Source of the DNA: Candidatus Schekmanbacteria bacterium RIFCSPLOWO2_02_FULL_38_14
GTDB lineage: Bacteria > Schekmanbacteria > GWA2-38-11
Direction of reading: 5' to 3'
NCBI GenBank assembly: GCA_001790855.1
Contig: MGDH01000010.1
Span: forward strand, 39,206-103,205
Length of the DNA: 64,000 nucleotides
Shown here: positions 30,236 to 47,555 of the stretch, piece after piece
Layout of the letters: every line of letters begins with the position of its first letter
How positions within the stretch are numbered: the first letter of the stretch is position 1
The notes under the pieces: generated by a model
Databases searched by the model: none
What the model was told of the DNA's origin: nothing
The model's input: only the letters and a program-made list of their open reading frames with translations
Made by a program: the position numbers and the translations under genes

Positions 30236-31648
30236 TCAAAACTGTTTTAAGTTCATTTCTTTTATCTTCTTCCTCAAAGTATTCCTGTTTATTCCAAGAA
30301 GCTTTGCTGCTTTTGACTGGCTGTTGCCTGATTCCTTCAAAGCAAGCTTTATAAGGGCTTCATCTACTTCTCTTTGAATGTCTGAAAATATCCTTTCTCC
30401 CTTTTTTCCCCGGAGAATCTTGTAAAACTTTGCCTTGACAGAAAAATACAAAGAGATTTTCTCATCAACAGCTTCAGTTTCAATGATAAAAGGGAACTCC
30501 TTCTCAGACAGGATTTTTCCTCCTGACATAAGCATTGCTCTTAAAATTGAATTTTCAAGCTCCCTGACATTTCCGGGCCAGTTATATTCCATCAGTTTCT
30601 CAACTGCTTTTTCAGAAATTGACCTGACATTCAATGACATCTCATCAGAAAACTTTTTTATGAAATATTTCACAAGCTCCGGAATATCCTCTTTTCTCTC
30701 TCTGAGAGGGGGGAGTTTTATCGGGAAAACATTCAGCCGGTAGTAAAGGTCTTCCCTGAAATTCTTATCTCTAACAGCTTTTTCAATGTCAATATTTGTA
30801 GCTGCTATTATTCTGACATCAACCGCTATCGGAACCCCTTCGCCAACCCTGTCAATCTCCTTATCCTGAAGAACTCTCAGTATTTTTCCCTGAAGATTAA
30901 AATCCATTTCTCCAATCTCATCCAGAAACAGGGTCCCGTTCTGCGCCTGAACAAATTTACCTGACTGGGTATCGATTGCTCCTGTAAAAGCCCCTTTTCT
31001 GTGCCCGAAAAGCTCACTCTCAAGAAGGTCTCTTGGTATTGCAGCACAGTTGACTTTTATAAAAGGGCTTCCGGTTCTTCTGCTGTGATTATGAATCATT
31101 CTTGCCACAAGCTCTTTCCCTGTCCCGCTTTCACCCAAAAGCAAAACTGTTGCATCGCTGTTTGCCACTTTCCCTATAGCCTTGAATATTTCCTGCATTC
31201 TCTGGCTCTTCCCGATAATTGTCCACTTATGCTGTTGTTCTTCAAGTTCAGCCCTTAAGGCTTTTACCTCTCCCTGCAAGTCAATAAGCCTGTTTATCTT
31301 CTCCATCAGCAAATTTAATTCATCAAGGTCAAATGGTTTTGTAAGGTAATCATAGGCTCCCTTTTTCATTGCTTCTATTGCATTGTCCATAGTGTTCTGG
31401 GCAGTCATCATAACAACAAAAATATCAGGAGCTATTTTTTTTATCTCGCTTAAAACCTCAAAACCGCTCATTCCCGGCATTCTCACATCAAGCAGGACAA
31501 TATCGTATTTTGCATCCTTTACCAGATTGAGAGCCTTCTTCCCCTCCTTCGCAGTATCTGCAATATATCCCTTTTTTTCCAAAGACCTCTTTATTACTTT
31601 CAGCAGGCTCTCTTCGTCATCTACTATTAAGATTCTTTTCTTTTCCAT
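30236..31648 (-). CDS. NtrC-family sigma-54-dependent response regulator
   Basis: A 470-residue regulator. The receiver domain (1-120) has the phosphoacceptor Asp in DIVLLDVRMPG near residue 54. The AAA+ domain has Walker A GESGTGKE, the sigma-54 loop KGAFTGA, Walker B GTLFLDEIGEMD and GNVRELEN. The Fis-type helix-turn-helix is NSQSKAAKLLGINRNTLRKKI. The best partner is the NtrB-like kinase at 33188-34282 on the same strand, separated by the ParDE-like genes and repeats. Targets are not identifiable. Confidence 0.93.
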   Translation of the reverse strand: MEKKRILIVDDEESLLKVIKRSLEKKGYIADTAKEGKKALNLVKDAKYDIVLLDVRMPGMSGFEVLSEIKKIAPDIFVVMMTAQNTMDNAIEAMKKGAYDYLTKPFDLDELNLLMEKINRLIDLQGEVKALRAELEEQQHKWTIIGKSQRMQEIFKAIGKVANSDATVLLLGESGTGKELVARMIHNHSRRTGSPFIKVNCAAIPRDLLESELFGHRKGAFTGAIDTQSGKFVQAQNGTLFLDEIGEMDFNLQGKILRVLQDKEIDRVGEGVPIAVDVRIIAATNIDIEKAVRDKNFREDLYYRLNVFPIKLPPLRERKEDIPELVKYFIKKFSDEMSLNVRSISEKAVEKLMEYNWPGNVRELENSILRAMLMSGGKILSEKEFPFIIETEAVDEKISLYFSVKAKFYKILRGKKGERIFSDIQREVDEALIKLALKESGNSQSKAAKLLGINRNTLRKKIKEMNLKQF

Positions 31649-31733
31649 TGAGTTTCTGTTCCTTTTTAATTTAAATTATATCAAGAACTTTTTTACATTA
31701 CAACAAGATATAATGAATTGCCCCGCAACAATC

Positions 31734-31785
31734 CCTCTCTATCCCCCCTTTAGAAAAGGGGGGTTGGGGGGGGGATTTGAGATTG
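31734..31785. repeat. C-run/G-run hairpin repeat, copy 2
   Basis: TATCCCCCCTTTAGAAAAGG continues as GGGGTTGGGGGGGGGATTTG and AGATTGTCACGCTCCTG. It matches the 29551-29600 copy in sequence and flank. Confidence 0.7.
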
Positions 31786-32108
31786 TCACGCTCCTGTAAT
31801 TAAACCATACTTTTTCAGAAGCCTCGGGGAAAAATCATTGAAGCAAAGAGAAAAGAATTGAGACAGAAAGGAAAGAAAGCGTTATTAACCTTTTTAAAAC
31901 AGACCCGTGAAGGAAAGTATGTAAAAATAGAGAAAAGTTATCTGCACGATTATAGAGTTAAAGAATAACGACAGAACTCACCTGCCCAAAACAAAAAGCA
32001 GATAAAATATTGATAAATCATAAAACATTTATAGGAATTAAGCCTACGAAAAAAGCACCGCTGTTTTGGGTCAGGTGGAGCAACTGGTTATGCCTACTTT
32101 GAATAATA
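31786..32108 (+). other. Gene-poor stretch with one open fragment
   Basis: A start-less plus-strand frame at 31804-31968 reads FQKPRGKIIEAKRKELRQKG, KKALLTFLKQTREGKYVKIE and KSYLHDYRVKE before TAA. It is basic and looks like a protein C-terminus, but I recognise no family. The rest, to 32108, shows no gene. It is probably remnant DNA inside the split kinase/regulator locus. Confidence 0.3.
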
Positions 32109-32405
32109 TTAGTAAATATAACGTTCAATGTCTAATGACCCATGAAATACACCCAATATATCAATATCTCCAGAGTGTTTTACAAGATAGGCAATTCTAT
32201 AATGACCATAAAGTAAAATTCGGATATTACGTTCTGGCTTATGTTTGTATTTATAACCCATTTCTGGAAATTCCAATAGTAACTGAGCTTTGTTGTAAAT
32301 AGCCTCTACAGTACGAATTGCTGCATTAGGATTATCTTGAAAAACATAATCATGGATATCTTTTAGCCACTGCTCTGACTCTGCTGTCCAATTTATTTTT
32401 GCCAT
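32109..32405 (-). CDS. RelE/ParE-family toxin
   Basis: A 98-residue ParE-type toxin: INWTAESEQWLKDIHDYVFQDNPNAAIRTVEAIYNKAQLLLEFPEMGYKY and IRILLYGHYRIAYLVKHSGDIDILGVFHGSLDIERYI. The fold pattern (two N-terminal helices, then a sheet ending in LGVFHG) fits ParE gyrase poisons better than RelE ribonucleases, though this is inference. It overlaps the upstream antitoxin by 13 bp. Confidence 0.85.
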   Translation of the reverse strand: MAKINWTAESEQWLKDIHDYVFQDNPNAAIRTVEAIYNKAQLLLEFPEMGYKYKHKPERNIRILLYGHYRIAYLVKHSGDIDILGVFHGSLDIERYIY

Positions 32406-32578
32406 GTTTTAATTCTATGTTTCATTTCCTCATTGTTTATAGTTCTATTAGAATCAGAGTCGGCAAGACCTCTTTCAACCATCCGATTAAATGCTAATTC
32501 ACGAAGAATTTCATCATACGAACTATCATCTGGCTGTTCCTGAATAATTCTGTTCATTTGTTCTTTTACTAAAGCCAT
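32393..32578 (-). CDS. Antitoxin of the ParE-like module
   Basis: A 61-residue protein when started at the ATG at 32578, which has GGAGGTCAAATT in front; the longer in-frame start at 32596 would use the ribosome site as codons. The product, MALVKEQMNRIIQEQPDDSS..RELAFNRMVERGLADSDSNRTI, is acidic and helical. It matches small antitoxins found beside ParE/RelE toxins, ending EEMKHRIKTWQK. It precedes the toxin with a 13-bp overlap, as expected for translational coupling. Confidence 0.75.
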   Translation of the reverse strand: MALVKEQMNRIIQEQPDDSSYDEILRELAFNRMVERGLADSDSNRTINNEEMKHRIKTWQK

Positions 32579-32634
32579 AATTTGACCTCCTTCCAATTTT
32601 TACTTTTTAAAAGGCATAACATGTATTGGACAGA

Positions 32635-32790
32635 CTGTATAAACCGGTGGAAGCAGACTGTCCCTTTCCGCCTAAACAGGGGGAGCATCCGACGGCCGTT
32701 TGCTCCAACCCCTTGTACCATCGCATCTTGCCTCCGTCATCCGTTTTCGGAGCCTCGTCTTATGCACCCGATAATTCACACTATTTAAAG
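32635..32790 (-). ncRNA. GC-rich, structured non-coding block upstream of the toxin-antitoxin genes
   Basis: This stretch is far richer in G+C than its AT-rich surroundings and has no plausible ORF. On the minus strand it can fold: GGCTCCG..CGGAGGC closed by GCAT..ATGC, and GGAGCA..TGCTCC around GGCCGT. It could be a structured RNA, a mobile-intron or retroelement remnant, or the toxin-antitoxin leader. I do not recognise a known RNA family. Confidence 0.3.
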
Positions 32791-32920
32791 CAGTTTGAAT
32801 TTCTGACACATCCAACTCTTTTTTCTACTGTAAACTGTAACACCCCCCTTTCTTTTGTCAAGCAGTTTTCAGTTTTCAGCATTCAGAGATATTGCAATAT
32901 CTTATCCTTGAGAATTAAAT

Positions 32921-32950
32921 GTAGGGACAACCACAAGGGTTTGTCCCTAC
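32921..32950 (+). repeat. GTAG-headed REP-like hairpin
   Basis: GTAGGGACAA and TTGTCCCTAC form a 10-bp stem around CCACAAGGGT. A second ATGGTTGTCC follows. No gene is seen from 32950 to 33187. Confidence 0.65.
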
Positions 32951-33187
32951 ATGGTTGTCCTGTCATTGGCAAAGCAAGGCTCTGCTGCTACATCAGATTG
33001 GACAGTGATAAACCGTTCGGCTGAGCTCACGACGAAACCCTGTCCCAAGTTTTCTAATTATTATTTGCGACAATTGAAACGCAATAAAATGCGCCATTTG
33101 AAATGCAAGGTAACAAGGATTATGAGGTTTTTAAATCCCTCTCATGGGAAGAATATAATAAAGAAAAAATTTTTTGGAGGATAAAAA

Positions 33188-34282
33188 TTAAGGAAGAGGC
33201 AGATAAATCTTAAAAATGGCTCCCTTTCCTTCTTCGCTCTCAACCCTTATAAACCCGTTATGCTCTTCAATAATTTTAAGGGACAAAGCTAACCCCAACC
33301 CGACTCCGCCGGGTTTTGATGTGCAGAAGGGAGTAAAAAGATTTTTTCTGATTTCCGGAGATATGCCTCTGCCACTATCCTGAATCTCAACAAGAATGTA
33401 CTGCTTTCTCGCGGTGTCTTTGGAGACAGGATGATATTCCTGGGAAAATTTAGTCCTTATATCAATATTCCCTTTTTCACCAAGCTCTTCAAGACTGTTT
33501 TTTATTATATTGTGAAATACCTGAAAAAGAGAATCCTTTGAAGCAAGGATATCAGGAAGGCTTGGGTCATAGGTTCTGCTGAATATTATCTTATCAGGAT
33601 TAATTTTTGTTTTTTCCAAAAGTATTACCTGATCAAGTATGCTGTGGATATTGCACTGTTCAAAGAAATTTTTTTTTCGCGTTGTTAACTCCATAAGACT
33701 GTTAGTAAGTCTTGAAAGCCTTTCAACCTCCTGAATTATAATATTTATGTATTCTTTCTGCTCTTTATTGTCCTCAATTTCTTCAAGAAGCAGCTGCGCC
33801 GCGCCCCTTATACCTCCAAGAGGATTTCTTATTTCGTGCACTATCCCTGCAGCCAGAACCCCTGAAATCTGCATTTTCTCAAGATTAAGAGTCCTTTCTT
33901 CAAGTCTTTTAATCATTGTCAAATTTTTTATTATTACAACTGTCCCTTCAGTTTCTCCCTTGTTGGAAATCAGCGGCGAAGTGGTAATGCTGACAGGTAT
34001 TTTACTCCTGTCTTTTTTAATGTAGTCTGTCTCGTAGTCAGAAAAAGTAATTTCTAAAGACATTGTTTTTTTTACAAGCTCAATTAGATTAATATTTTCA
34101 GAAAAAAATTCAAAAAGTGACTTGCCCTGAACCCTGTTAAATGAAATCCCGCTTAGTTCTTCCATTGATGAATTAAAAACATTGATACAGAAATTCCTGT
34201 CAACGACCATCATCCCGTCCGGAAGGGCATGAATGATTTCTTTCAGGGTTTTTCCTGCTCCTGAATTAAAACTCTTTTTCAT
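33188..34282 (-). CDS. NtrB-like soluble PAS histidine kinase
   Basis: A 364-residue cytoplasmic kinase without membrane segments. An N-terminal PAS domain (LPDGMMVVDRNFCINVFNSSMEELSG; PLISNKGETEGTVVIIKNLT) is followed by an H-box AAGIVHEIRNPLGGIRGAAQLL (phospho-His near residue 151), N-box HNIIKNSLEEL, G1 IQDSGRGISPEIRKNLFTPF and G2 GVGLGLALSLKIIEEHNG. Layout and the RNPLGGIRGAAQLL block are those of NtrB. The expected partner is the NtrC-like regulator at 30236-31648. It starts 4 bp after the upstream TIM-barrel gene. Confidence 0.93.
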   Translation of the reverse strand: MKKSFNSGAGKTLKEIIHALPDGMMVVDRNFCINVFNSSMEELSGISFNRVQGKSLFEFFSENINLIELVKKTMSLEITFSDYETDYIKKDRSKIPVSITTSPLISNKGETEGTVVIIKNLTMIKRLEERTLNLEKMQISGVLAAGIVHEIRNPLGGIRGAAQLLLEEIEDNKEQKEYINIIIQEVERLSRLTNSLMELTTRKKNFFEQCNIHSILDQVILLEKTKINPDKIIFSRTYDPSLPDILASKDSLFQVFHNIIKNSLEELGEKGNIDIRTKFSQEYHPVSKDTARKQYILVEIQDSGRGISPEIRKNLFTPFCTSKPGGVGLGLALSLKIIEEHNGFIRVESEEGKGAIFKIYLPLP

Positions 34283-35609: not shown

Positions 35610-36755
35610 TTATAAGTTTCTTCGTCTTTTCTCACACAGAGGACATATATTCTCTGTTCCAACAAATTCGCCTTTGCAGCGATGGCATACTCTCTTCTTT
35701 AATCTAACAAGCTCAACCATTTTGTCTTCAGTCAGCTTTTTCATGCTTAGCCTTGGCTGTACTCCGATTGCCTTTACAAGACAAACATCCTGACAAAGCC
35801 TGCAGTTTGTGCATCTCTGCTCATTAAAATAAATCTTAATAAAGGCTTCATCAGAAATCCTGCTTATAGCTCCTGTTGGGCAGAGAACGTCGCAAACATT
35901 ACAACCCATGCAGTTTTCTCTGATAAAGGCTGTTGCAAAAGGAATAAAGGTATCAGGAGATAAAACTTTCTCTTCCTGATTAGAATCCTTTAAGAGACTC
36001 ACCAAATGCGGCCTTTTATGATTCTGGAATTTCCTGGTCTGCGCACCAGGTATTTCTTCCTTATTTTCAGATTTATACAGATTAGCCAGAGTATTAGTTG
36101 TCTCTAACATTACTTTGCTTTTTATTCTTTTAAAGAATTTTCTCCTGTCCAGATTCTCTTCTCTTTTAACCTTGCCCTCACCCTTCTTAAATTCAGAGAA
36201 CTCACCAAGGACCTGAATGCTATCTCCTTCTAACCCTAATGAATGAATAATAAAGATAGCTAATTGCCTTATCTCATGAAAAAGCGCCTTTCCCTTTTCA
36301 ATGCTACATCCTTTACAATCCGGAACCTTTATCTCTATTCTGCCTGACCTCTTTAAAACCAGATGGATGAGGATGTTTTCCGTAAGCCTTCCAACGCATT
36401 TTAAGGAAATTAAATCAACATTTTCCTCAATCCCTTTTTCACACGTAAACCTCACAACCCTTTCAGGATTATTCTTAAGAAAATCCTCTGCAATGGATAT
36501 TATTGAAAAATCGTTCTTGGTTTCAGAGTCAAAAACACCGTTCGGGCAGGCTGAAATGCAGCAACCGCATTCAATGCATTTATCATCTATAGAAATATTA
36601 TTTTCTATACTGATTGAGCCAGCCGGACAGAATTCAACGCATCTTCTGCATTTTGACTTGGGAGACCTTACAGTCGGGCAGAGTTCAGGAATGATAATTA
36701 TGTCCTTTCTCGTAAAACTCTCCAGCGCCTTATTAATTATTTTTGATTCAAGCAT
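35610..36755 (-). CDS. Polyferredoxin with MvhD-like middle domain
   Basis: A 381-residue cytoplasmic-type protein with two ferredoxin modules. The N-terminal one is CRRCVEFCPAGSI and CIECGCCISACPNGVF (residues 37-75). The C-terminal one is CMGCNVCDVLCPTGAI and CTNCRLCQDVCLVKAI (about 280-335), and a zinc-ribbon CHRCKGEF..CPLCEKR ends the protein. Residues 95-165 (VRFTCEKGIEENVDLISLKCVGRL..EIKVPDCKGCSIEKGK) resemble the MvhD/hydrogenase delta subunit 2Fe-2S region. It lies last in the molybdoenzyme operon and probably links it to cytoplasmic or membrane donors. Confidence 0.8.
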   Translation of the reverse strand: MLESKIINKALESFTRKDIIIIPELCPTVRSPKSKCRRCVEFCPAGSISIENNISIDDKCIECGCCISACPNGVFDSETKNDFSIISIAEDFLKNNPERVVRFTCEKGIEENVDLISLKCVGRLTENILIHLVLKRSGRIEIKVPDCKGCSIEKGKALFHEIRQLAIFIIHSLGLEGDSIQVLGEFSEFKKGEGKVKREENLDRRKFFKRIKSKVMLETTNTLANLYKSENKEEIPGAQTRKFQNHKRPHLVSLLKDSNQEEKVLSPDTFIPFATAFIRENCMGCNVCDVLCPTGAISRISDEAFIKIYFNEQRCTNCRLCQDVCLVKAIGVQPRLSMKKLTEDKMVELVRLKKRVCHRCKGEFVGTENICPLCEKRRRNL

Positions 36756-36768
36756 AATATATCTAAAT

Positions 36769-36792
36769 AAACAGGCGAGACGCCTGTTCTAC
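36769..36792 (-). repeat. GTAG-headed REP-like hairpin
   Basis: On the minus strand it reads GTAGAACAGGCGTCTCGCCTG followed by TTT. It lies between the TorD and polyferredoxin genes. Confidence 0.7.
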
Positions 36793-36803
36793 TCTCTTTA
36801 TGA

Positions 36804-37487
36804 TCATCCTTTTATAAATGCACAATTTAATGTATTGCTATCAGAAAGGACAAAGTCAAGGGTGATTTTCGCAATGGCGAGATAAAAATTATTTTTTGTT
36901 TTTTCAAAAATTTTTTCACATAAATCTGGAAGCCAGCACAGAATGTGCTCTTTTAAGAACTTCTTTTCCATTTTCTGAAGGGAGGTTATAAGTTTAGGAT
37001 TATTTTCCTTATAAGCTTTTTCTTCTTCCTTGCAGAGAGTAGCCATAAAAGCAAGCTCTGTTCCGATATGGTCTGGAAGTTCATGGTATTCATTGGGAAT
37101 CTGAAATCCAAGTCTGGTATAAATTTTTTTAACATCAACCCCAGACTTTCCGCTCATACAACCATGGCGATACACTGATTCATAAGGGGTAACAAATTTC
37201 GAAAGAGGAACCTTAAACAAATCATGGTATTCCTGAACAAGGCTTCTAAAATCTTCGTTGTTTATATTTTCTAACTCAGAAATAAGTTGTTTTGTTCCAT
37301 TAGAAATAAAAGATGAATTTACCGAAAAGGCTGCAATCTCTCTTAAAGTTCCAAGGGTATCTGCAGTGGGAGTAGTCAAAAATAAAGAGGAAAGGAAAAA
37401 GTAAAAATTACTTCTCTCCCACGCTAAATTAATAAAATTTTCATTTCCCTTTTCCAACATAATTTTAAAAGTAGAAACCAACCCCAA
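36804..37487 (-). CDS. TorD/DmsD-family molybdoenzyme maturation chaperone
   Basis: A 227-residue all-helical TorD-like protein. Family features are the N-terminal AWERSNFYFFLSSLFLTTPTADTL, YHDLFKVPLSKFVTPYESVYRHG near residue 90, DHIGTELAFMATLCKEEEKAY and FLKEHILCWLPDLCEKIFEKTKNNFYLAIAKITLDFV. Such proteins bind the Tat leader and insert the molybdopterin cofactor before export. Its partner is clearly the Tat-leader catalytic subunit at 38134-41382. The C-terminal codons have a degraded copy near 46313-46357. Confidence 0.9.
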   Translation of the reverse strand: MGLVSTFKIMLEKGNENFINLAWERSNFYFFLSSLFLTTPTADTLGTLREIAAFSVNSSFISNGTKQLISELENINNEDFRSLVQEYHDLFKVPLSKFVTPYESVYRHGCMSGKSGVDVKKIYTRLGFQIPNEYHELPDHIGTELAFMATLCKEEEKAYKENNPKLITSLQKMEKKFLKEHILCWLPDLCEKIFEKTKNNFYLAIAKITLDFVLSDSNTLNCAFIKG

Positions 37488-37505
37488 ACAATAATCTCTT
37501 TACCT

Positions 37506-37532
37506 GAACTCCATGTAGGAGTTGGTTTCTAC
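37506..37532 (-). repeat. GTAG-headed REP-like hairpin
   Basis: On the minus strand GTAGAAACCAACTCCTACAT is followed by GGAGTTC; the stem is AACTCC/GGAGTT. It lies in the gap between the 4Fe-4S subunit and TorD genes. Confidence 0.55.
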
Positions 37533-37547
37533 TGAGTATTTCTAATA

Positions 37548-38105
37548 TTACCACGCTGTAATCCAACCCCACTCAAATGTTACTGATGGATTTGTATAGC
37601 TTCTTGAAGAAAACTTCTCAGGAACAGTTCCTGTATTGCCAACGTCTTCACCAAAGCTAAGGGCTTTCCCAATGCAGGTATTAACGCATGCAGGCTTTAA
37701 ACCTGTAAGAGCACTTCCTGCACTGTTTAAAACCCTATGAGCGCAAAGCGAGCATTTCTCCATCTTCTTTGTGCTCCCATTAAACCTTGGAGCCCCATAG
37801 GGACACACCGTTGCGCAATACTTGCATCCAATACATTTACTATCATCAATAAGCACAACTCCGAAATTTGCATCCTTGCTTATTGCTTCAACAGGGCAAG
37901 ATTTCAGGCACGCAGGCTCTTCACAATGAAAGCATGACATTGTCACAAAAAGCCTTTTTGGCTCTGTTTCTGTCCCTCCCTGCTTTTCAATAACTGCTCT
38001 ATATCTTGTTCCTTTTACAGTATTTAACTCAGCATTGCAAGCTACAGCACAAGCTCTGCATCCAGCACATTTAGCAAGATTTATTGTAAAACCTAACTGG
38101 CTCAT
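37548..38105 (-). CDS. 4Fe-4S electron-transfer subunit (DmsB/TtrB/NrfC type)
   Basis: A 185-residue four-cluster ferredoxin. Cluster motifs in order are CAGCRACAVAC near residue 14, CFHCEEPACLKSC near 59, CIGCKYCATVCPYG near 91 and CSLCAHRVLN..CVNTC near 118. This is the canonical electron-transfer partner of molybdopterin oxidoreductases. No Tat leader of its own is seen, so it is presumably co-exported with the catalytic subunit. It lies 28 bp after that gene. Confidence 0.93.
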   Translation of the reverse strand: MSQLGFTINLAKCAGCRACAVACNAELNTVKGTRYRAVIEKQGGTETEPKRLFVTMSCFHCEEPACLKSCPVEAISKDANFGVVLIDDSKCIGCKYCATVCPYGAPRFNGSTKKMEKCSLCAHRVLNSAGSALTGLKPACVNTCIGKALSFGEDVGNTGTVPEKFSSRSYTNPSVTFEWGWITAW

Positions 38106-38133
38106 TCTTTAAGCCTCCTTTCAAATTTTTATT

Positions 38134-41100
38134 TTAACTTAAAACCTTTTCAACCTTAACTTTACTTATATAGAAACATGCCTGACCAGAAATCGGGTCT
38201 GTAAGGCATAGTTCAGGGAAATCGGGGTCTCCTCGCTGGACCAAATTGCCATTAGGACCTACACCGATTTTTGAGTCATAGGCTGAATCTACGCTATCAA
38301 CTTTATAAGGTTTTGAACCAAACCATTCTCTTCCAAAATGGTGGTCAATAACAACTGATTTTTGGCGAAGCCCATTTATTACTCTGACCTTGCCCTGTGT
38401 ACTCTGTCCATTGGATGAAGTTACTTTGACTATGTCACCTGTTCTTACTCCAAGACTTCCTGCATCTGTGGAGCTAAGATATATAAACCCTTCAGGCTGG
38501 AGTTCAAGGAGCCATTCATTGCTTGTTGACCTTGACTGAACTTGCCATGCTCTCTTATATGTGTTCAGAGTGTAGTCATATCCAGTAACTTCTTCAATTA
38601 AGGTTCCTTTAAGCCCAATATTCGGTTCTTCCCATTTCGGGATTCCTGAGTATTCTTCACCTGTCAACGCATTCTTTGCATGGGCAACCTTTTCTGAAAA
38701 GATGCTGATAAGGTCACCATATTTGTTTTTTATCCAGTCTGGTGCACTTGAATCTTCAATCTGAGCCGGATTCTCCCATCTACCAGCCATCTTCATATAT
38801 TCAGTACTACTATCTCCAGGTCCGCTGGTTTGACCTTCACTTCCTAAACCCGAAGAGAAATCCCCTGCTTTAAAGGCTTCATCCCAGAACGAATAGGCTG
38901 TATCAAGATGCTTACCTGTGCCTATTCCATCAGTCCCAAAATTTGGAAGGTCTAAAAGCTTTGCCATCTGAATCAACTGTTCATCATATGGCATAGGACC
39001 ATTCCATGCATCAAGAAGAGCTGAAATATCACTGAAAGAGCTTCCAGTTAATTCTGCATCAGCAGGGATATAAATCCACGCAGTTCTATCTCCTATTGTA
39101 ATCTGTTTATATGAGCCGATTACAGGTCTTCTAATTGTGCCAGCCTTTGTTTTTAATGTTGGATAACTTGTAAATGGAGTTGAATACCTCTCAAGATAGG
39201 TGCTGTCAGGAAGGATATAATCTGAAAGCGCTGCAGTCTCATCCATAAAGATTGTGCAGGAGACTACAAGAGGAATAACATAGCTTGAACCATCCTTCTT
39301 CGTCAGAGCATCCCTTACTCCCTGGCTATTTGGTTGAGTATAAGCAGGGTTAAAGCAATAAAGCATCAGTGCCTTATATTTGTAAGGATAACTTACTGCC
39401 ATGCTCGGGATTGCTTCCTGGCTTATTACACTTGCGAGATAATACCACTGCCTTGTTGGTGTGGGTTCAGTTCCCTCATATTTTGAACCTGCTCTGTCAA
39501 CCCTTACACCACTTGTAAGACCGCTTGAAACAGCTCTTGAAGGCTCTTTTCCTCCAAACCTTGGACCTGTGCAATAACCCCCAACTTTATCTACTCTGCC
39601 AATGATGGTATTGAGAATGTTTATAGCTCTTGAAGTCTGATATCCATTTGGATGCCCCCAGGCACCTCTATAAGCTTCTAAACAAGTCTTTTTGCTGCTA
39701 TCGGATAAATCGCTTGCCAAAGTCTGAATAGTAGTTCCACTCACATCACAAAGGCTTGCCCATTCTGAAAGTTCCTTACTCATCACCTCATCTTTTAACA
39801 GCTTAAAAGCTGTGGAATAATTAAGACTATTTTTTGTTCCAGAGGATTCAAGTTTTGCAGTATCAGCAGAAGTATATGGCACAATTGAACCATCGCTTTT
39901 TTCCACAGTAAAGGCAATTGATGCAATAGCTCCGCTACTTGCTGAAGCAGCCTTTGTGTTGAAGCTTCCCCTTGTGCAACCGCTTGCAGAGGTTCCAAGC
40001 GTTTTATTTGTATCATCCTTTGCCGGATAATAGATTACCTCATCACCAATTTTTATAAAACCCTTTGAAGGAAAGGTACTTGTGTCCGCAACAGGAATAA
40101 CTTTGTCAGAGGATGTTATAGCTGAAGAAAGGGTTGTTACTCCTTCTGTTAAACCTGCAGCAGAAGCAGTCAGAAATTCCTCGCCTTTACCACTCGCAGT
40201 TTCTACCAGAAATGTTGCATCAGTATAGTTTTTATATCCTGCTGTGCTTGCCGCTGATTCATTTGGAATGGAAAGATAAGCACTCAAGTGCTTGTTGTTT
40301 TCTATTATCCATCTTATCATTCCCATGACAAGAGCAAGGTCTGTGCCGGGTTTTATTGGAACCCACTGGTCAGCTTTTGAGGCAGTATGCGTGAAAAATG
40401 GGTCAACCACAACGATTTTGCCACCATTTGCCTTCATTGCCATCAGTTTTCTTGCCCAGAAAGGAGTCCCCACATTTGCCTCAAGTGGATTTGTTCCTAA
40501 GAGAATTAGATATTCCACATTGTCAAGGTCAACCCTCATGTACTTATAAGAAGCTTTTTTAGGACCGGTAAATGTTGTTTTAGTTGGCACAGCATAATTG
40601 GTATTGCACAAAGAGCTATGCTCAATATGATTTACTGTCCCAAAGGATTCATTAAATCTTTTTGTTATCTGGGAAATCTGGTCCCTTCCTCTTATCCAGA
40701 CATATTGATTTGCCTTAAAGCCGAAGTTTGAAGCATCGCCTGATTTTGCTTCATTTGCATAGTCAGTATCAGAAGATGTCAGTTTTTCTGAAACACGCTT
40801 TGATGAATCAGGAGTGCCTCTTATAGCAGACAATCCTATAAAAGAGCCTTCAGGAAGAGTCCCCCCATTGATTATCTCATTAAATGCCTGCTTCCATGAG
40901 ATAGCCTGCCATTTTTCTTCACCCCTTGCACCTGTCCTTTTCAAAGGAGTTTTAACCCTGTAAGGGTCATAAAGGGTCTTTATTCCTGCATTGCCACGAC
41001 CACAAGGCGTACCTGAATTTTTATCAGGTTCTGAAATATCTGTTAGAGCTGCCTCTGTGCCTGCTGTTGAATAATCATTTGTATGCGGACAGAAGGGATT

Positions 41101-41382
41101 CCCTTCGATCTTCTGTACGATGCCACTGCTGTCAATTTTAACCTGAATGCCGCATCCTGCATTGCACATCATGCAGGCAGTACGGATTACTTTTACACCT
41201 GTATCGCCTACATTTGGGTCAGGGTCATTTAAGGCATAGAGGTTTTTCAACTCAAAACCTGAAAGAGCTGCTGTTGTGCCTGCAACAACACTGCTTACCT
41301 TAAGAAATGTTCTTCTGGAAACCTTAGCCTTGTTTCCAAAACCTGTATTTTTTATTTTTTTAAACGAGTTTTTTGTGTTCAT
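38134..41382 (-). CDS. Tat-exported molybdopterin oxidoreductase catalytic subunit (Ttr/Arr/Psr branch)
   Basis: A 1082-residue bis-PGD enzyme. Tat leader: KVSRRTFLKVSSVVAG (residues 20-35). The 4Fe-4S site is ACMMCNAGC near 69 with the fourth Cys in GTPCGRGNAG near 127. EHSSLCNTNYA supplies the probable Mo-ligand Cys near residue 258. LILLGTNPLEANVGTPFW, PIKPGTDLALVMGMIRWI and the C-terminal HHFGREWFG..LTDPISGQACFY fit the tetrathionate, arsenate and polysulfide reductase branch. Residues about 410-500 are a foreign-looking insert (TTLSSAITSSDKVIPVADTS, FIKIGDEVIYYPA, SGCTRGSFNTKAA). The substrate is inferred to be an S, As or Se compound, not proven. Confidence 0.9.
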   Translation of the reverse strand: MNTKNSFKKIKNTGFGNKAKVSRRTFLKVSSVVAGTTAALSGFELKNLYALNDPDPNVGDTGVKVIRTACMMCNAGCGIQVKIDSSGIVQKIEGNPFCPHTNDYSTAGTEAALTDISEPDKNSGTPCGRGNAGIKTLYDPYRVKTPLKRTGARGEEKWQAISWKQAFNEIINGGTLPEGSFIGLSAIRGTPDSSKRVSEKLTSSDTDYANEAKSGDASNFGFKANQYVWIRGRDQISQITKRFNESFGTVNHIEHSSLCNTNYAVPTKTTFTGPKKASYKYMRVDLDNVEYLILLGTNPLEANVGTPFWARKLMAMKANGGKIVVVDPFFTHTASKADQWVPIKPGTDLALVMGMIRWIIENNKHLSAYLSIPNESAASTAGYKNYTDATFLVETASGKGEEFLTASAAGLTEGVTTLSSAITSSDKVIPVADTSTFPSKGFIKIGDEVIYYPAKDDTNKTLGTSASGCTRGSFNTKAASASSGAIASIAFTVEKSDGSIVPYTSADTAKLESSGTKNSLNYSTAFKLLKDEVMSKELSEWASLCDVSGTTIQTLASDLSDSSKKTCLEAYRGAWGHPNGYQTSRAINILNTIIGRVDKVGGYCTGPRFGGKEPSRAVSSGLTSGVRVDRAGSKYEGTEPTPTRQWYYLASVISQEAIPSMAVSYPYKYKALMLYCFNPAYTQPNSQGVRDALTKKDGSSYVIPLVVSCTIFMDETAALSDYILPDSTYLERYSTPFTSYPTLKTKAGTIRRPVIGSYKQITIGDRTAWIYIPADAELTGSSFSDISALLDAWNGPMPYDEQLIQMAKLLDLPNFGTDGIGTGKHLDTAYSFWDEAFKAGDFSSGLGSEGQTSGPGDSSTEYMKMAGRWENPAQIEDSSAPDWIKNKYGDLISIFSEKVAHAKNALTGEEYSGIPKWEEPNIGLKGTLIEEVTGYDYTLNTYKRAWQVQSRSTSNEWLLELQPEGFIYLSSTDAGSLGVRTGDIVKVTSSNGQSTQGKVRVINGLRQKSVVIDHHFGREWFGSKPYKVDSVDSAYDSKIGVGPNGNLVQRGDPDFPELCLTDPISGQACFYISKVKVEKVLS

Positions 41383-41394
41383 TCTCCCCTCCTT

Positions 41395-42099
41395 TTATTC
41401 TTTATAAAATTCTTTACCTATACTTCCTGGAGCATGGCATGGATAGCATATTGCAACATCAACATTTTTTCTTAAACTCCCGGCAGAACGTTCCACAATA
41501 TCTGTATTCTTGTGGCAGTACAGGCATTTCGCATCATTAGTTTTCCCGGGAATAATGGAAAGTTTTAGTATTTTAAGGACATGGAATGTATCAATTGAAG
41601 AATTCAAGCTTGTTTCTTTCAGAATACCCTTATGACATGAAGCATTTGTGCAATCTGTTCTATATTGGCTTGAATTCTTGTCATGGATGGGGATGGGATT
41701 GCCGGTAAAAGGCACAGGCTCCTCGCAGTCATTTATGCATTTCTGAACCTTTAATCCCTTTAACTTCTTTGCTTTTTTCCCATTAGTATTTTCAACTATT
41801 ATGGTTCTGTAACCAATCTTTGCATCAAGGGCTACTTCAACCTGCACCTTTATTTCTCTACTTTTCACTGTTGTTGAGAGTACAGTAATCCCTTGACCCA
41901 AATTTACCTCTGCATTCTGTTTAAACCCACTACCCTTTATGGTAATTGTTTTTGTATCGTTTTGCTTTATAAGCTTTGGCACTATTGCTGTTACTTTAAT
42001 TTTTGATATTGCAGCAAAAGCACTTATAGGTATTATAAATACCCCAATCATTATGAATAAAATCAAAAACCGAAATTTTCTCATATACCCCCCTTTCAA
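41395..42099 (-). CDS. Exported cytochrome c-type protein with IPT-like domain
   Basis: A 234-residue secreted protein. The signal peptide is RKFRFLILFIMIGVFIIPISAFA. Residues 30-120 form an IPT/TIG-like fold (KVTAIVPKLIKQNDTKTITIKGSGF, GQGITVLSTTVKSREIKV). The C-terminal part holds heme-binding motifs CTNASCH (CX4CH), CLYCH and CYPCH, so up to three c-type hemes. It lies 12 bp before the molybdoenzyme gene and is the first gene after the sigma-54 promoter. It is the likely periplasmic electron carrier for the enzyme. Confidence 0.85.
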   Translation of the reverse strand: MKGGYMRKFRFLILFIMIGVFIIPISAFAAISKIKVTAIVPKLIKQNDTKTITIKGSGFKQNAEVNLGQGITVLSTTVKSREIKVQVEVALDAKIGYRTIIVENTNGKKAKKLKGLKVQKCINDCEEPVPFTGNPIPIHDKNSSQYRTDCTNASCHKGILKETSLNSSIDTFHVLKILKLSIIPGKTNDAKCLYCHKNTDIVERSAGSLRKNVDVAICYPCHAPGSIGKEFYKE

Positions 42100-42192
42100 A
42101 GGAACAAAACTTAACGTATTGAAATTTTTAACTAATTATATCAATTCTCTCTCACCACCTCCTATTGACTATAAGCAGAACACAAAAAACTA

Positions 42193-42208
42193 AGCAAATT
42201 CCATGCCA
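42193..42208 (-). promoter_or_regulatory. Sigma-54 (-24/-12) promoter of the molybdoenzyme operon
   Basis: On the minus strand TGGCATGGAATTTGCT has the GG and GC dinucleotides 10 nt apart and matches TGGCAYG-N4-TTGCW fully. Predicted transcription start is near 42182, about 83 nt before the cytochrome gene ATG. A sigma-54 activator gene lies directly upstream. Confidence 0.88.
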
Positions 42209-42248
42209 GAAGATTTAGCAGAATTTGACTGAGGGGTTTAAGTATCTG

Positions 42249-42273
42249 AAAAGATAATAAATATTTATCTTTT
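42249..42273. promoter_or_regulatory. Inverted repeat, candidate enhancer (UAS) for the response regulator
   Basis: AAAAGATAA and TTATCTTTT form a perfect 9-bp inverted repeat with a 7-nt spacer, centred about 80 bp upstream of the predicted start. This is the usual distance for a sigma-54 activator dimer. It could instead be a weak terminator of the regulator gene. Confidence 0.45.
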
Positions 42274-42414
42274 AAAATAAAATTAAGAACCTGTTTTGAT
42301 TGAATGAAAGTTGCTTGTTTTGCAGAATTTCAGGCAGTGGTTTAAAAAAAATCTAGTGAAGTCTTATATAACTATTTGTTTTTATTATTTAATTTTATTC
42401 AACGAATTCCCGTT

Positions 42415-43815
42415 TTAAGTTTCCGTATTTCCGTCACCAACATCATTCTCAAGCCCGTATTTATTTACTTTATCGCAGAATGTCGACCTCTTCATTTTTA
42501 AAAGCTGCGCGCCAATAGTTTTATTCCCTTTGCTCTCATTTAAAGCCCATGCTATCAATTCTTTTTCTGCCTGTTCCATTATTTCATTAAATACCCTGTT
42601 ATCAGGATGAAGTTTTGTAACATCAACAAAAGAACCTGTATACTGAAAATAATCTATTCTTTTCTTTACCATATCTGCTGTTAGCATATCTCCTTTCATT
42701 ACTGTAACCATCTGCTCAACTATATTTTCAAGCTCTCTCACATTTCCGGGCCAATAGTAAGAAATTAACTCCTGCATAGCTTCAGGCTCTATTTTTGGAA
42801 TCTCTTTTGCCTCGCGTTTGCAGAATTTTTTCAGGAAATAATCAAACAATAGCGCAATATCCTCACTCCTCTCCCTTAAAGGCGGCAATTCTATGTTCAC
42901 AACATTAATCCTGTAATAAAGGTCCTTGCGGAACTCTCCATTTCTGACTTTTTCTAATAAGTTCTCTTTTGTTGCTGCTATTACTCGTATATCAACCTTG
43001 ATAGGATTTGTTCCTCCTACTCTTTCAAATTCTCTCTCCTGCAAAACCCTTAATAGCTTAACCTGTATTGAAAGAGGCAGGTCATCAATGTCATCAAAAA
43101 AAATTGTTCCTCCATTAGCGAGCTCAAACCTGCCAGGTTTTCTGCCTATTGCACCAGTAAATGAACCTTTTTCATGGCCAAAAAGCTCAGATTCAAGAAG
43201 GTTCTCATTAAACACAGCACAGTTAACCTTTATCAAAGGGTTATTTCTTCTTTTGCTGTTATAATGAATTGCATTGGCAACCAGTTCTTTTCCTGTTCCG
43301 CTTTCACCCTGAACCAGAACAGTGCTCTGGGTATTTGCAATACATGAAATTAACTCATAGATTTCTCTCATTATTTTGCTTTTCCCGACAATATTGCAGC
43401 ATTCGTATTTTTCAAACAGCTTTTCCTTAAGCTCAAGGTTTTCAGATTTTAACCTTTGAAATTCTTCAATCCGCTTAAACATCAGCAAAAGTTCATCAAG
43501 CTCAAAGGGTTTGGTAATGTAATCATAAGCCCCCTGCTTCATAGCCTCTACGGCTGTCTCCACAGTTGCATAAGCGGTCATCATTATTACAACAGCCTCA
43601 GAATCGATTTTCTTTATCTCTTTTAAAAATTCTATTCCATCCATCTCTGGCATTTTTAAGTCAGTTATTACTATATCAGGGTTTTCTTTCTTAAACCTGT
43701 CAAATCCTTCTATTGCATTTTCACAGGAAATGACTTCATATCCATTCTTTGACAGAAAATCAGTAACAGTAACTCTTTTTATAGGTTCATCATCTGCAAC
43801 CAAAATCTTTTTCAT
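42415..43815 (-). CDS. Sigma-54-dependent response regulator of the XSR-type system
   Basis: A 466-residue regulator: receiver domain with phospho-Asp in DIVITDLKMPEMD near residue 54, AAA+ domain with GESGTGKE, the sigma-54 loop as GSFTGA (variant of GAFTGA), GTIFFDDIDDLP and GNVRELEN, and a Fis-type HTH (NKTIGAQLLKMKRSTFCDKVNKYGL). The Walker B reads FDD rather than the usual LDE. It lies 15 bp after its kinase and just upstream of the sigma-54 promoter at 42193-42208, which it probably activates. Confidence 0.93.
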   Translation of the reverse strand: MKKILVADDEPIKRVTVTDFLSKNGYEVISCENAIEGFDRFKKENPDIVITDLKMPEMDGIEFLKEIKKIDSEAVVIMMTAYATVETAVEAMKQGAYDYITKPFELDELLLMFKRIEEFQRLKSENLELKEKLFEKYECCNIVGKSKIMREIYELISCIANTQSTVLVQGESGTGKELVANAIHYNSKRRNNPLIKVNCAVFNENLLESELFGHEKGSFTGAIGRKPGRFELANGGTIFFDDIDDLPLSIQVKLLRVLQEREFERVGGTNPIKVDIRVIAATKENLLEKVRNGEFRKDLYYRINVVNIELPPLRERSEDIALLFDYFLKKFCKREAKEIPKIEPEAMQELISYYWPGNVRELENIVEQMVTVMKGDMLTADMVKKRIDYFQYTGSFVDVTKLHPDNRVFNEIMEQAEKELIAWALNESKGNKTIGAQLLKMKRSTFCDKVNKYGLENDVGDGNTET

Positions 43816-43830
43816 ATAAGTCCCTTAATA

Positions 43831-45303
43831 TTATCTAATCAAAGGCAGTGATACCTTAAATGTGCTGCCGACTCCTTCTTTGCTTTCAGCCTCTATTTTC
43901 CCTTTATGCTTTTCTACAATCCCCAGACTTACTGAAAGCCCAAGCCCTGTTCCTTTACCCTGTTCCTTTGTTGTAAAAAACGGGTCGAAAATTTTATTCA
44001 AATTATTTTTAGATATCCCACTTCCATTATCTGAAACCTTAATGTTAACAAAACCATTTTCTCTCTCAGTAGATACTTTGACTACTCCACTGCCATCTAC
44101 TGCATCAAGACTATTCATAATCAGGTTTATTAAAACTTGCTGGAGTTGATATTTATTGCCAAATACTTTTGTAATCTCCTTACAAAACTCTTTTTTGAAA
44201 ACTATCTTCTTTTTCTCAATTCTGTAATTCACAAGGGAAAGAGAACTTTCTGCTATTTCATTGACATCAACCTCTTCCATCTCATAGGTCCTGTCCTTTG
44301 AAAAATCAAGAAGCTCGCGAACAATAAGCTCTATTCTCTTCAGCCCGTCCATTATCAGCTTTATGTACTTGCTGGTTTGTTCCCTGTTATCTGGTTCTTT
44401 TAAAATCATCTGGAAACAATCCTTAATTCCGTCAAGTGGATTGTTTATCTCATGAGCAACTCCTGCTGCAAGCCTGCCAATTGAGGCAAGCTTTTCTGAT
44501 TGAATAATCTGGGACTGTGCCTTTTCCAGGTCTTTTTTAGCCTGTCGTAACCTGTCAATCATTTTATTGAACTTCTCACCCAGCAGTCCTATTTCATCCC
44601 TGTTTTTTATTTCAATCTCAGGATGAGATAAATCAGAAGATATTTTGTCCATGGCATCTGAAAGCTTTGAAATCGGCTCTGTTAATCTTTTGGCAAGAAC
44701 CCAAGTAATTATAACAGAAACAAATATGAATCCAAGTGCAACAAGTATTATTTCAATGTAGAGTTTTATTAAAAATGGCTTCATAAATTCCATTGAAAAT
44801 CCAACCCTCAATGTTCCCCATTTCTTTGTTGAAATAGCAAGCGGAGTTGCCACATCAAGGATTTTAATTTTTTTTATTGGGTCATAATAATATTGCTTCA
44901 ATGTCTTTTTTGCTGAAGTCGCTTTTAAACTTACAGAGTCATTGTATATCCTGCCATATTTTTTATAATCATTATGAGCAATAATTCTGTTATCCTTATC
45001 AAGAATCATAGCATAGACTACATGAAGCTTTTTATTTTTCATTATCTGCAAAATATAATTGTCAAGCAAGCCTCCTTCTTCAATCAACCCCAATTCCTGA
45101 TATAAAAGTGTATTTGTGCAGGAAACCCCAAGGGCTTCTACCAGAGTAATGCCATTCTGTTCAGCTTTATCAATTAAAAGCCTTTCTTCCTGATTTTTCT
45201 CTACATATCCCACAACAATCATCAGCACTATTATTAGAGTAGTTGTATAAGCAATATACCTTCTTTTAAGACTCCATCTTATCTCTTTTAAACCTCTTTT
45301 CAT
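43831..45303 (-). CDS. Membrane sensor histidine kinase
   Basis: A kinase of about 490 residues. The ATG at 45303 overlaps the TGA of the upstream gene as ATGA, with AGAGG before it; a start at 45324 would overlap by 25 bp. Two membrane helices (YIAYTTTLIIVLMIVVGYVE and IEIILVALGFIFVSVIITWVLA) flank a periplasmic domain of about 135 residues. HAMP, then H-box AAGVAHEINNPLDGIKDCF, N-box LINLIMNSLDAV, and G boxes SDNGSGI and GKGTGLGLSVS follow. Together with the periplasmic protein at 45300-46259 it should sense a ligand outside the membrane. Confidence 0.93.
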   Translation of the reverse strand: MKRGLKEIRWSLKRRYIAYTTTLIIVLMIVVGYVEKNQEERLLIDKAEQNGITLVEALGVSCTNTLLYQELGLIEEGGLLDNYILQIMKNKKLHVVYAMILDKDNRIIAHNDYKKYGRIYNDSVSLKATSAKKTLKQYYYDPIKKIKILDVATPLAISTKKWGTLRVGFSMEFMKPFLIKLYIEIILVALGFIFVSVIITWVLAKRLTEPISKLSDAMDKISSDLSHPEIEIKNRDEIGLLGEKFNKMIDRLRQAKKDLEKAQSQIIQSEKLASIGRLAAGVAHEINNPLDGIKDCFQMILKEPDNREQTSKYIKLIMDGLKRIELIVRELLDFSKDRTYEMEEVDVNEIAESSLSLVNYRIEKKKIVFKKEFCKEITKVFGNKYQLQQVLINLIMNSLDAVDGSGVVKVSTERENGFVNIKVSDNGSGISKNNLNKIFDPFFTTKEQGKGTGLGLSVSLGIVEKHKGKIEAESKEGVGSTFKVSLPLIR

Positions 45304-46259
45304 CCTTTTGGTCCTCTGTGGCATGTTTTTCCGCAGACTTTTGGGATATCCAGGATAAGTTCTTTAATACGTTCATAGTCATCATCATGAGCCTCTATAA
45401 AACCATATCTGAATTCCTCATCCCAGTTCTTCATAATTTCCCAATCCAAAGGATTTTTCGGATTAAGCTTCAGGAGGACTTTTTTAACAGCTTCAACCAT
45501 TTTAGGGTCAGCATCCTTCCTTACTGTAATAGGGACACTTGGAATCGGGTCAGATTGAGCTAAAAATCTTAAACCTCTTGGTTTGTATTTTAAGGCAACA
45601 ACATCTTTTACTGCGCCAGCATCATACTCACCTTTAAGAACTGCCTGCGCCACAGCATCATGGTGCCTTAAATTTATATAGGATTTCAAATCTTCAAGCT
45701 TTATTCCATGATTAAAGAGCAAATAGCGCGGGATTAAATTCCCAGATGTTGATTTGATTGAAGCAAAGGCAAAACTTTTTCCTTTAAGGTCATTCAACGA
45801 ATATATATTGTTGTCCTCTTTTGTTATAATTATGCTTCTATAGAAAATATCTCCACTGCTTGTTCTTGGACGCAGGATACTCTTGGCATTGAATTTCAGG
45901 TTGCAATCAATAAAAGTCACTCCACCAAGGGATGCAATATCAGTCACTCCGTAATGAAGGTCATCCTCTGTCTCATTGTATGTTGAACCGAGCTTAAGCT
46001 CAAATTTATATGGTGTGCTTGCAGTCAAATAATCCATAATTGGCTGGTAATTTTCATACATTACCATTGGATTATATCTGGAAATCACTCCAAACTTTAT
46101 AACCTCTTTTTTGGGTTCCTCATTTTTAGGCAGTGAAACTACCTTTTTGTTTGCATCAATATCCACCTTTTCGCGCTTACATGAACTTGGAGCTAATAGA
46201 ATCGTTAATGGCAGGAATAAAAGAAAAACAAATATTAAAAACCTTCTCTTTGCTCTCAT
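45300..46259 (-). CDS. PhnD-like periplasmic oxyanion-binding lipoprotein
   Basis: A 319-residue periplasmic binding protein. The leader FLIFVFLLFLPLTILLAPSSC ends in a lipobox-like APSSC, so it is probably a lipoprotein. The body matches the PhnD (phosphonate/phosphite) family: FGVISRYNPMVMYENYQPIMDYL, LHYGVTDIASLGGVTFID, DLKGKSFAFASIKSTSGNLIPRYLL and LKGEYDAGAVKDVVALKY. No ABC transporter genes are near. AioX, ArxX and ArrX, which sense arsenic oxyanions for a kinase, have this form. The C-terminus carries CGKTCHRG (CX3CH). Confidence 0.88.
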   Translation of the reverse strand: MRAKRRFLIFVFLLFLPLTILLAPSSCKREKVDIDANKKVVSLPKNEEPKKEVIKFGVISRYNPMVMYENYQPIMDYLTASTPYKFELKLGSTYNETEDDLHYGVTDIASLGGVTFIDCNLKFNAKSILRPRTSSGDIFYRSIIITKEDNNIYSLNDLKGKSFAFASIKSTSGNLIPRYLLFNHGIKLEDLKSYINLRHHDAVAQAVLKGEYDAGAVKDVVALKYKPRGLRFLAQSDPIPSVPITVRKDADPKMVEAVKKVLLKLNPKNPLDWEIMKNWDEEFRYGFIEAHDDDYERIKELILDIPKVCGKTCHRGPKG

Positions 46260-46414: not shown

Positions 46415-46557
46415 TTTTTTAATTGCAGAATAAAGCTTGAAAGTAAATGTTAGAGTTTAAAAGATTCACAATAACTACATGAGTGATATTGTAACTTCAA
46501 ATCTCGAATGGTATACATCGGTTGATCTTTTCCCATTCACTGACTTCTATATTACCC

Positions 46558-47187
46558 ATGAATACAACTATACTTTTTGACAAACAAAATCTTAAGTACG
46601 CAAAAATTGCCACATGGGATTTAGGCAACCAAGTGCTTTATAATTTATGCTTAAAATATCCAAACCATAAGAACAAGTCTGAAGTATTGGCGAAAATATG
46701 GTTAATAGGTAGATCTTACGCTGCTTCTATAGAGCGACGTAAAAATAAAAATCATAAAGGTGAAGATAATGAAATGTTTTATGAGAAAATAGTTGCACCA
46801 GCAATGATTAAATCAAGATTAGATCATTATCTATCCAGATTGGATATATATAAAGAGATTTCCGACTTCAATATTGAATTAATTTTAGAAACCCATAAAT
46901 ATTTAGTAGATTTATTTGTGAGCATTACAGAACTAAACAAGAGGTCTCTTGCTTCAAAATATTTACACTTTCACCGTCCAAATCTTTTTTATTTATTCGA
47001 TTCAAGAGCTGCAAATTCATTGAGAAAACTGGTACCTAAATTGGCAAATGATAAATATTTAAATTATGATTCAACATATACATCATTTTATCTAAAAGCA
47101 TATTCACTTAATAGGTTCATCAAGAATAAGTATGATATTGCTCTTTCACCACGTGAATTAGATAAGATTTTATTGTGGATTTATTAA
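46558..47187 (+). CDS. Hypothetical protein, about 209 aa
   Basis: The ATG at 46558 (MNTTILFDKQNLKYAKIATW) is preferred to a TTG at 46522; neither has a strong ribosome site. The product is soluble and basic, rich in Lys, Tyr and Asn, with no signal peptide. It contains LIGRSYAASIERRKNK near residue 50 and KYLHFHRPNLFYLFDSRAAN near 145. The latter recalls proteins that judge a small catalytic or DNA-binding fold, but I cannot name a family. Base composition is more AT-rich than the neighbours and it abuts brnTA, so recent acquisition is likely. Confidence 0.7.
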   Translation: MNTTILFDKQNLKYAKIATWDLGNQVLYNLCLKYPNHKNKSEVLAKIWLIGRSYAASIERRKNKNHKGEDNEMFYEKIVAPAMIKSRLDHYLSRLDIYKEISDFNIELILETHKYLVDLFVSITELNKRSLASKYLHFHRPNLFYLFDSRAANSLRKLVPKLANDKYLNYDSTYTSFYLKAYSLNRFIKNKYDIALSPRELDKILLWIY

Positions 47188-47206
47188 CAAAAACGATGAA
47201 AAGGTA

Positions 47207-47235
47207 TTGTCAAACTCAATTATAACAGTTATAAT
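47207..47235 (+). promoter_or_regulatory. brnTA promoter with overlapping palindromic operator
   Basis: TTGTCA (47207-47212), 17-nt spacer, TATAAT (47230-47235). The perfect palindrome ATTATAAC-A-GTTATAAT at 47219-47235 covers the -10. BrnA-type antitoxins repress their own promoter, so this is the expected operator. Confidence 0.8.
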
Positions 47236-47258
47236 AAGACAATAGAAACTGACAAGAT

Positions 47259-47555
47259 ATGCTTTTATTTGAATGGGATCTGAACAAGGCAAGAAAAAAT
47301 ATAAAAACTCACGGCGTATCTTTTGATGAGGCAAGCACAGCTTTCAAAGACACCTTATCATTAACTATTTACGACCCTCTGCATTCTGATAAAGAAGACA
47401 GGTTTATTTTAATTGGGAATTCCTGTGAAAATCGCCTTCTGGTAGTTGTTCACACAGAAAGAGGAGATAAAATCAGGATAATAAGCGCAAGAAAAACAAC
47501 AAGAAATGAAAGGAAACAATATGAAGAGAATGCGAAAAGATCCAGACATGCTTGA
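47259..47555 (+). CDS. brnT: BrnT-family ribonuclease toxin
   Basis: A 98-residue BrnT toxin: FEWDLNKARKNIKTHGVSFDEASTAFKDTLSLTIYDP, EDRFILIGNSCENRLLVVVHTERGDKIRIISARKTTRNERKQYEE. This is the RelE-like fold seen in BrnT, with the conserved WD..KA..N..KHGV start (here KTHGV) and the IISAR..T..ER..Y end. As in other brn loci, the toxin gene comes first. It starts 24 bp after the -10. Confidence 0.93.
   Translation: MLLFEWDLNKARKNIKTHGVSFDEASTAFKDTLSLTIYDPLHSDKEDRFILIGNSCENRLLVVVHTERGDKIRIISARKTTRNERKQYEENAKRSRHA

Follow-up and report, generated by a model that had tools for sequence, protein, structure and literature searches.

A gene cluster on the minus strand of a 64-kb stretch from Candidatus Schekmanbacteria bacterium RIFCSPLOWO2_02_FULL_38_14 (the window, by which we mean that whole stretch of DNA) probably encodes a three-component oxyanion switch controlling an anaerobic respiratory molybdoenzyme. 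Along the minus strand, genes for a sensor (X), a histidine kinase (S), and a response regulator (R), together XSR, are followed by a sigma-54 promoter and then by genes for a cytochrome c, a molybdopterin catalytic subunit (MoA), an iron-sulfur (FeS) subunit, a TorD-type chaperone, and a polyferredoxin. The genes, their order, the promoter match, the phylogeny, and the pocket residues are read from sequence. A preliminary description of this DNA had proposed an XSR sensing system driving a sigma-54 molybdoenzyme operon; every gene that it listed lies at the coordinates, on the strand, and with the domains that it gave, and the type of system stands as proposed.

We predict ligand binding, phosphotransfer, promoter use, catalytic direction, and substrate as follows. 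X, located outside the inner membrane and anchored there, would bind a small tetrahedral oxyanion in a two-lobed pocket and would signal to the Cache-HAMP kinase S. S would phosphorylate R, which would activate RNA polymerase-sigma54 at 42208-42193, and the operon would in this way be induced by an oxyanion. Its product would be a periplasmic MoA-FeS dimer, exported through twin-arginine translocation (Tat), with TorD and the polyferredoxin helping in its maturation. Electrons would pass between this dimer and the triheme cytochrome c of the same operon; we take the cytochrome as the redox partner because the operon encodes no NrfD-type quinol subunit. Most likely, MoA would reduce the same ion that X senses. 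A first guess at the substrate is a sulfur oxyanion (polythionate or thiosulfate), with selenium or arsenic oxyanions next.

X (45300..46259) is a periplasmic PhnD-like sensor lipoprotein of 319 amino acids (PF12974; Pfam, 1.7e-61), whose lipobox, APSSC, is not canonical and is a weak point of the assignment; the orthologue in G002, a genome of the same order, has LISAC. S (43831..45324) is a membrane histidine kinase with sCache_3_2, HAMP, HisKA, and HATPase domains, and R (42415..43815) is an NtrC-type response regulator in which a domain search found REC, a sigma-54 activation domain, and HTH_8. The longest open reading frame (ORF) of S overlaps X by 25 bp; provided that S begins at the internal ATG at 45303, its likely start, the X/S junction is the ATGA overlap reported earlier, and the 15-bp gap between S and R is equally real. 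With adjacent X, S, and R genes, a sigma-54 activation domain in R, an RpoN promoter before the operon, and one copy of rpoN in the 2.68-Mb genome, the XSR/sigma-54 arrangement is complete.

The -24/-12 promoter, TGGCATGGAATTTGCT (42193..42208, minus strand; predicted +1 at 42182), is where the preliminary description had placed it, and no other site in the window matches TGGCAYG-N4-TTGCW perfectly. The genome as a whole contains seven perfect matches, compared with zero for the reversed pattern. Under a simple weighted scheme with a maximum of 22.5, the window promoter scores 22.5, and the best scores of random 300-bp window stretches never reached 21. Before the corresponding operons of G002 and of a Myxococcales metagenome-assembled genome (MAG), the best sites score 21.0 and 21.5; sigma-54 site and XSR thus co-occur in three lineages. 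At four planctomycete loci encoding the enzyme, the best score is at most 16, and genome-wide searches of these four genomes found no convincing X-type sensor (best E value of 1e-9, compared with 3.5e-55 in the Myxococcales genome). The Aio regulator is known to act at an RpoN promoter (PMC5908839).

Possible regulator sites were sought upstream of the promoter. An inverted repeat, AAAAGATAA-N7-TTATCTTTT (42249..42273, minus strand), lies 40 bp upstream of the -24 element and is weak, since 34 of 300 shuffles equal it. The Myxococcales MAG has a perfect 20-bp palindrome, GTGTTACCGTACGGTAACAC, 84 bp upstream of its -24 element (L025:8730-8872; 1 of 300 shuffles), which is likely a regulator site. 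In G002, the sigma-54 site is separated from the cytochrome gene by a TatA-like small ORF (L028, about 11100-11260).

The operon opens with a periplasmic triheme cytochrome c with a TIG domain (41395..42099; likely ATG start at 42084), in which one CX4CH and two CXXCH haem motifs can be read directly. MoA (38134..41382; 1082 amino acids) has the Tat signal SRRTFLK, the domains Fe4S4, Molybdopterin, and Molydop_binding, the 4Fe-4S ligands C70, C73, C77, and C127, and the Mo-ligand Cys259; the Tat motif, the Fe-S cysteines, and Cys259 are conserved. Next come a four-cluster [4Fe-4S] electron-transfer subunit of the DmsB/TtrB type (37548..38105), as evidenced by Fer4 domains and family scores, and a TorD/NarJ-type chaperone (36804..37487; PF02613 [Nitrate_red_del], 1.1e-28). 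The last gene (35610..36755) encodes a polyferredoxin, identified through a domain search (Fer4) and with zinc-ribbon-like cysteines at its C terminus, that is probably an accessory for maturation or electron transfer; such a gene also adjoins TorD in G027, G032, G312, and G232 and is present in the ArrA-like operons of G107 and G263.

MoA belongs to the superclade of TtrA, SrdA, and alternative arsenate reductases, as evidenced by its tree position and by Cys as the Mo ligand. Its NCBIfam scores are 313 bits for TtrA, 219 for PhsA, and 106 for ArrA (NF041714), all far under cut-off; the strict TtrA cut-off (NF011567) is 1750 bits. In two trees, which were quick searches without bootstraps on sequences that did not include NarG, SrdA, AnrA, or archaeal arsenate reductases, MoA falls inside a superclade with plasmid-borne TtrA (Shimodaira-Hasegawa-like approximate likelihood ratio test [SH-aLRT], 100), within which it branches with the Myxococcales and G032 enzymes. 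It stands apart from PhsA, FdnG, DmsA, and the ArrA-like references, which are so named from scores of 1060-1300 bits, under the 1600 cut-off. Approximately unbiased (AU) tests rejected the window group as one clade with TtrA alone (p=1.1e-5), with PhsA (p=2e-4), or with ArrA/ArxA (p=2.6e-5); the last result and the trees agree with the earlier judgment that the enzyme is no clear ArrA or ArxA. A formate dehydrogenase or DMSO reductase type was also discarded, as FdnG and DmsA fall outside the superclade. The preliminary description had named formate dehydrogenase and nitrate reductase families as placements that would refute it; as far as that check was run, MoA does not group with FdnG, and its NCBIfam score against NarG is 29 bits.

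Known members of the superclade share with MoA a Cys-ligated periplasmic catalytic subunit and an FeS partner, and they are known to act on tetrathionate, selenate, and arsenate (PMC7331816, PMC10100899). MoA differs from them in its separate branch, its cytochrome c partner, the lack of an NrfD/PsrC anchor among the genes of the operon, and an insert of ~65 residues (about 417-481, IGDEVIYY...GCTRG; 39940..40134). Besides the window clade, the Myxococcales enzyme and that of G291 have this insert; TtrA and other relatives are without it, and a Pfam search of it gave no match. An unnamed novel lineage sister to the TtrA/SrdA family has been described (PMC10100899), and the MoA branch may be that lineage. 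AlphaFold models were unusable, with predicted local distance difference test (pLDDT) values of 33 for MoA (5 sequences) and 38 for X (single sequence). Separately, a Citrobacter arsenatis plasmid carries a TtrA-superclade molybdoenzyme operon within an ars island (L039:5019-10414); operons of this type, on enterobacterial plasmids, are annotated merely as molybdopterin-dependent oxidoreductase.

The collection searched holds only four genomes of the window's phylum, a count that told against a planctomycete host, which the nearest named enzymes had at first suggested. G002 keeps the gene order, with X, S, and R 58, 46, and 58% identical, and it has cytochrome, MoA (75% identical), FeS, and TorD genes ordered as in the window. 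G003 has an X orthologue (56-59% identical) in an X-S-R set at a contig end, where the enzyme is not seen. The nearest named MoA relatives, from planctomycete MAGs, are as close as that of G002 (73-75% identity), which likely reflects cross-phylum transfer; the cytochrome is 58-60% identical in planctomycete loci, and the [4Fe-4S] subunit is 77-82% identical in relatives. The Myxococcales MAG has X-S-R, a collagen-like/cytochrome gene, MoA (43%), FeS, and TorD. G232 has X-S-R-cytochrome-MoA-FeS-TorD-polyferredoxin, and in G291 the XSR genes come after the operon (cytochrome-MoA-FeS-TorD-X-S-R).

In its make-up, the locus resembles AioXSR, ArxXSR, and ArrXSR, which pair a PhnD-like sensor, a kinase, and a regulator with an adjacent periplasmic molybdoenzyme (PMC5908839). 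The AioX pocket consists of Tyr88, Cys106, Tyr131, Ser161, Ser163, His192, and Asp210, and PhnD is without Cys106 (PMC5908839). X keeps the equivalents of six of these seven residues, whereas the position of Cys106 is Gly in X, G002, G003, and other close relatives. Cys106 is retained in ArrX, in the sensors near the ArrA-like genes of G076 and G377, and in a second sensor of the window's genome. The sensor tree separates a Cys clade including ArrX (support of 100/99) from the Gly set with X (85/83), and the best PDB relatives of X are PtxB (5e-18) and then ArrX (1e-14). Kinship with the arsenic systems is therefore not supported at the sensor, and an arsenic reading of X was rejected on the Cys106-to-Gly change and tree position. 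In Myxococcales, G232, and G291, the enzyme related to MoA has a Cys-type, ArrX-like sensor next to it; one enzyme lineage thus stands beside both sensor types, and therefore either the ligand differs or binding it does not require the Cys.

The second sensor of the window's genome, a Cys-type protein (PDB: ArrX, 6e-58; AioX, 1e-36), is encoded on contig C18 (L026:9456-18938) with a HisKA_3 kinase and NarL-type regulator (a NarX/NarL-type pair) and a Qrc/Phs-like complex. That locus also encodes multihaem cytochromes, FeS and NrfD proteins, and a QrcB/PhsA-like Mo-binding subunit without Cys in the Mo-ligand column.

These data make it unlikely that the cluster is a true arsenic XSR, in which X would sense arsenate or arsenite and MoA, within the TtrA superclade, would either act as an alternative arsenate reductase or oxidize arsenite. 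An archaeal arsenate reductase does belong to that superclade (PMC7331816), Cys-type sensors do neighbor some MoA relatives, and in Melioribacter roseus the PhnD-like protein, kinase, and regulator of ArrTSR lie directly upstream of a TtrA-clade molybdoenzyme, next to ars genes (PMC5492636). Nevertheless, X is without Cys106 and outside the AioX/ArrX clade, MoA is neither Arr nor Arx, and the operon is not flanked by ars genes. The M. roseus locus differs from that of the window in adjoining ars genes and in being described as TtrABC with a membrane subunit (PMC5492636).

A comparison limited to the arsenic systems, as in the preliminary description, is too narrow, given that PhnD-like sensing domains are also known from TtrS and ThsS and that MoA scores best to TtrA. 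TtrS detects tetrathionate and ThsS detects thiosulfate, and each controls a TtrA- or PhsA-type reductase (PMC5408782). Unlike X, these sensing domains are fused to the kinase, and the TtrS pocket motifs differ from those of X; plasmid TtrR, at 194 amino acids, is short and not of the NtrC type, in contrast to R.

A further possibility, which we consider improbable, is that what X detects is phosphate, phosphite, or a phosphonate, serving as a proxy for nutrient or redox status in general, the enzyme's substrate being unrelated to the sensed ion. Among solved structures, those closest to X are PtxB proteins, which bind phosphite, and in G346 and G322 (L091 and L092) Gly-type X-S-R genes lie beside Pit phosphate transporter-, DUF47-, and CYTH-like genes (named by eye), hinting at phosphate sensing by Gly-type sensors. 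However, the adjacency of X-S-R and the molybdoenzyme is kept in G002, and characterized XSR sensors bind the substrate of their own enzyme (PMC5908839). It is very unlikely that XSR and operon are mere neighbors, with R acting elsewhere and a vegetative promoter controlling the enzyme, since, despite the four planctomycete genomes that have the enzyme without XSR and the G003 contig end where XSR is seen alone, a perfect sigma-54 site lies between R and the cytochrome, and site and XSR are found together in three lineages.

Several observations weigh against the oxyanion switch that we favor. The phosphate-transport neighborhoods of G346 and G322 mean that the ligand of X could be phosphate. 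XSR-less operons in G027 and G312 carry sigma-54-like sites (21.5 and 21.0), and therefore such a site needs no adjacent XSR; a different activator may serve there. The promoter matches of G232 and G291 are weaker, that of G232 being far upstream, and no regulator motif or site shared between the window and G002 was found. Finally, no sulfur-, selenium-, or arsenic-specific genes adjoin the window operon, and the ACR3 arsenite pump, a common gene, is encoded elsewhere in the genome.

X also ends in an unusual tail. Its CX3CH motif, CGKTCH (residues 309-314; 45318..45335, minus strand), is kept as CGGTCH in G002, CGESCH in G003, and, within the C-terminal half of a tandem G263 sensor, CGKGCH, and it is absent from all other sensors examined. 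The motif looks selected because the remaining C terminus varies. Haem attachment, metal binding, and a disulfide are candidate roles. In a bolder version, to which we give only a slim chance, the CGxxCH tail would bind haem or metal, joining oxyanion and redox signals in a new class of three-component sensor; the oxyanion reductase under its control would be soluble and cytochrome-linked and would represent a new family of the TtrA superclade that acts on a substrate of its own. The G263 sensor (L087:9404-11128; 574 amino acids) has an N-terminal Cys-type and a C-terminal Gly-type PhnD-like domain and is followed by a kinase and an NtrC regulator; an ArrA-like operon lies ~6 kb downstream of this regulator.

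Other genes flank the cluster. On the plus strand of the window, a 221-amino-acid ORF that matches no family and a gene for a BrnT toxin (46522-47555) separate X from a 5'-3' exonuclease gene; in G003, the exonuclease gene directly adjoins X. Downstream of the operon (30236-34282) are a separate NtrC-like regulator and an NtrB-like PAS kinase, with a ParE-type toxin gene in between.

A PhnD-like three-component system next to a TtrA-clade enzyme has already been reported in M. roseus (PMC5492636), and the window system is therefore less new in this respect. Its new features are a set of Cys-less sensors and their tail, an enzyme branch linked to a cytochrome, and a promoter whose presence matches that of the sensor. 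XSR/sigma-54 control is, on this evidence, not tied to arsenic. Because a single enzyme lineage occurs with two sensor clades, of which one has the arsenic-linked Cys and the other does not, ligand choice can be tested directly, and X-type systems are candidate oxyanion biosensors. More broadly, the locus points to a branch of respiratory oxyanion enzymes common to a rare phylum, Planctomycetota, and Myxococcota.

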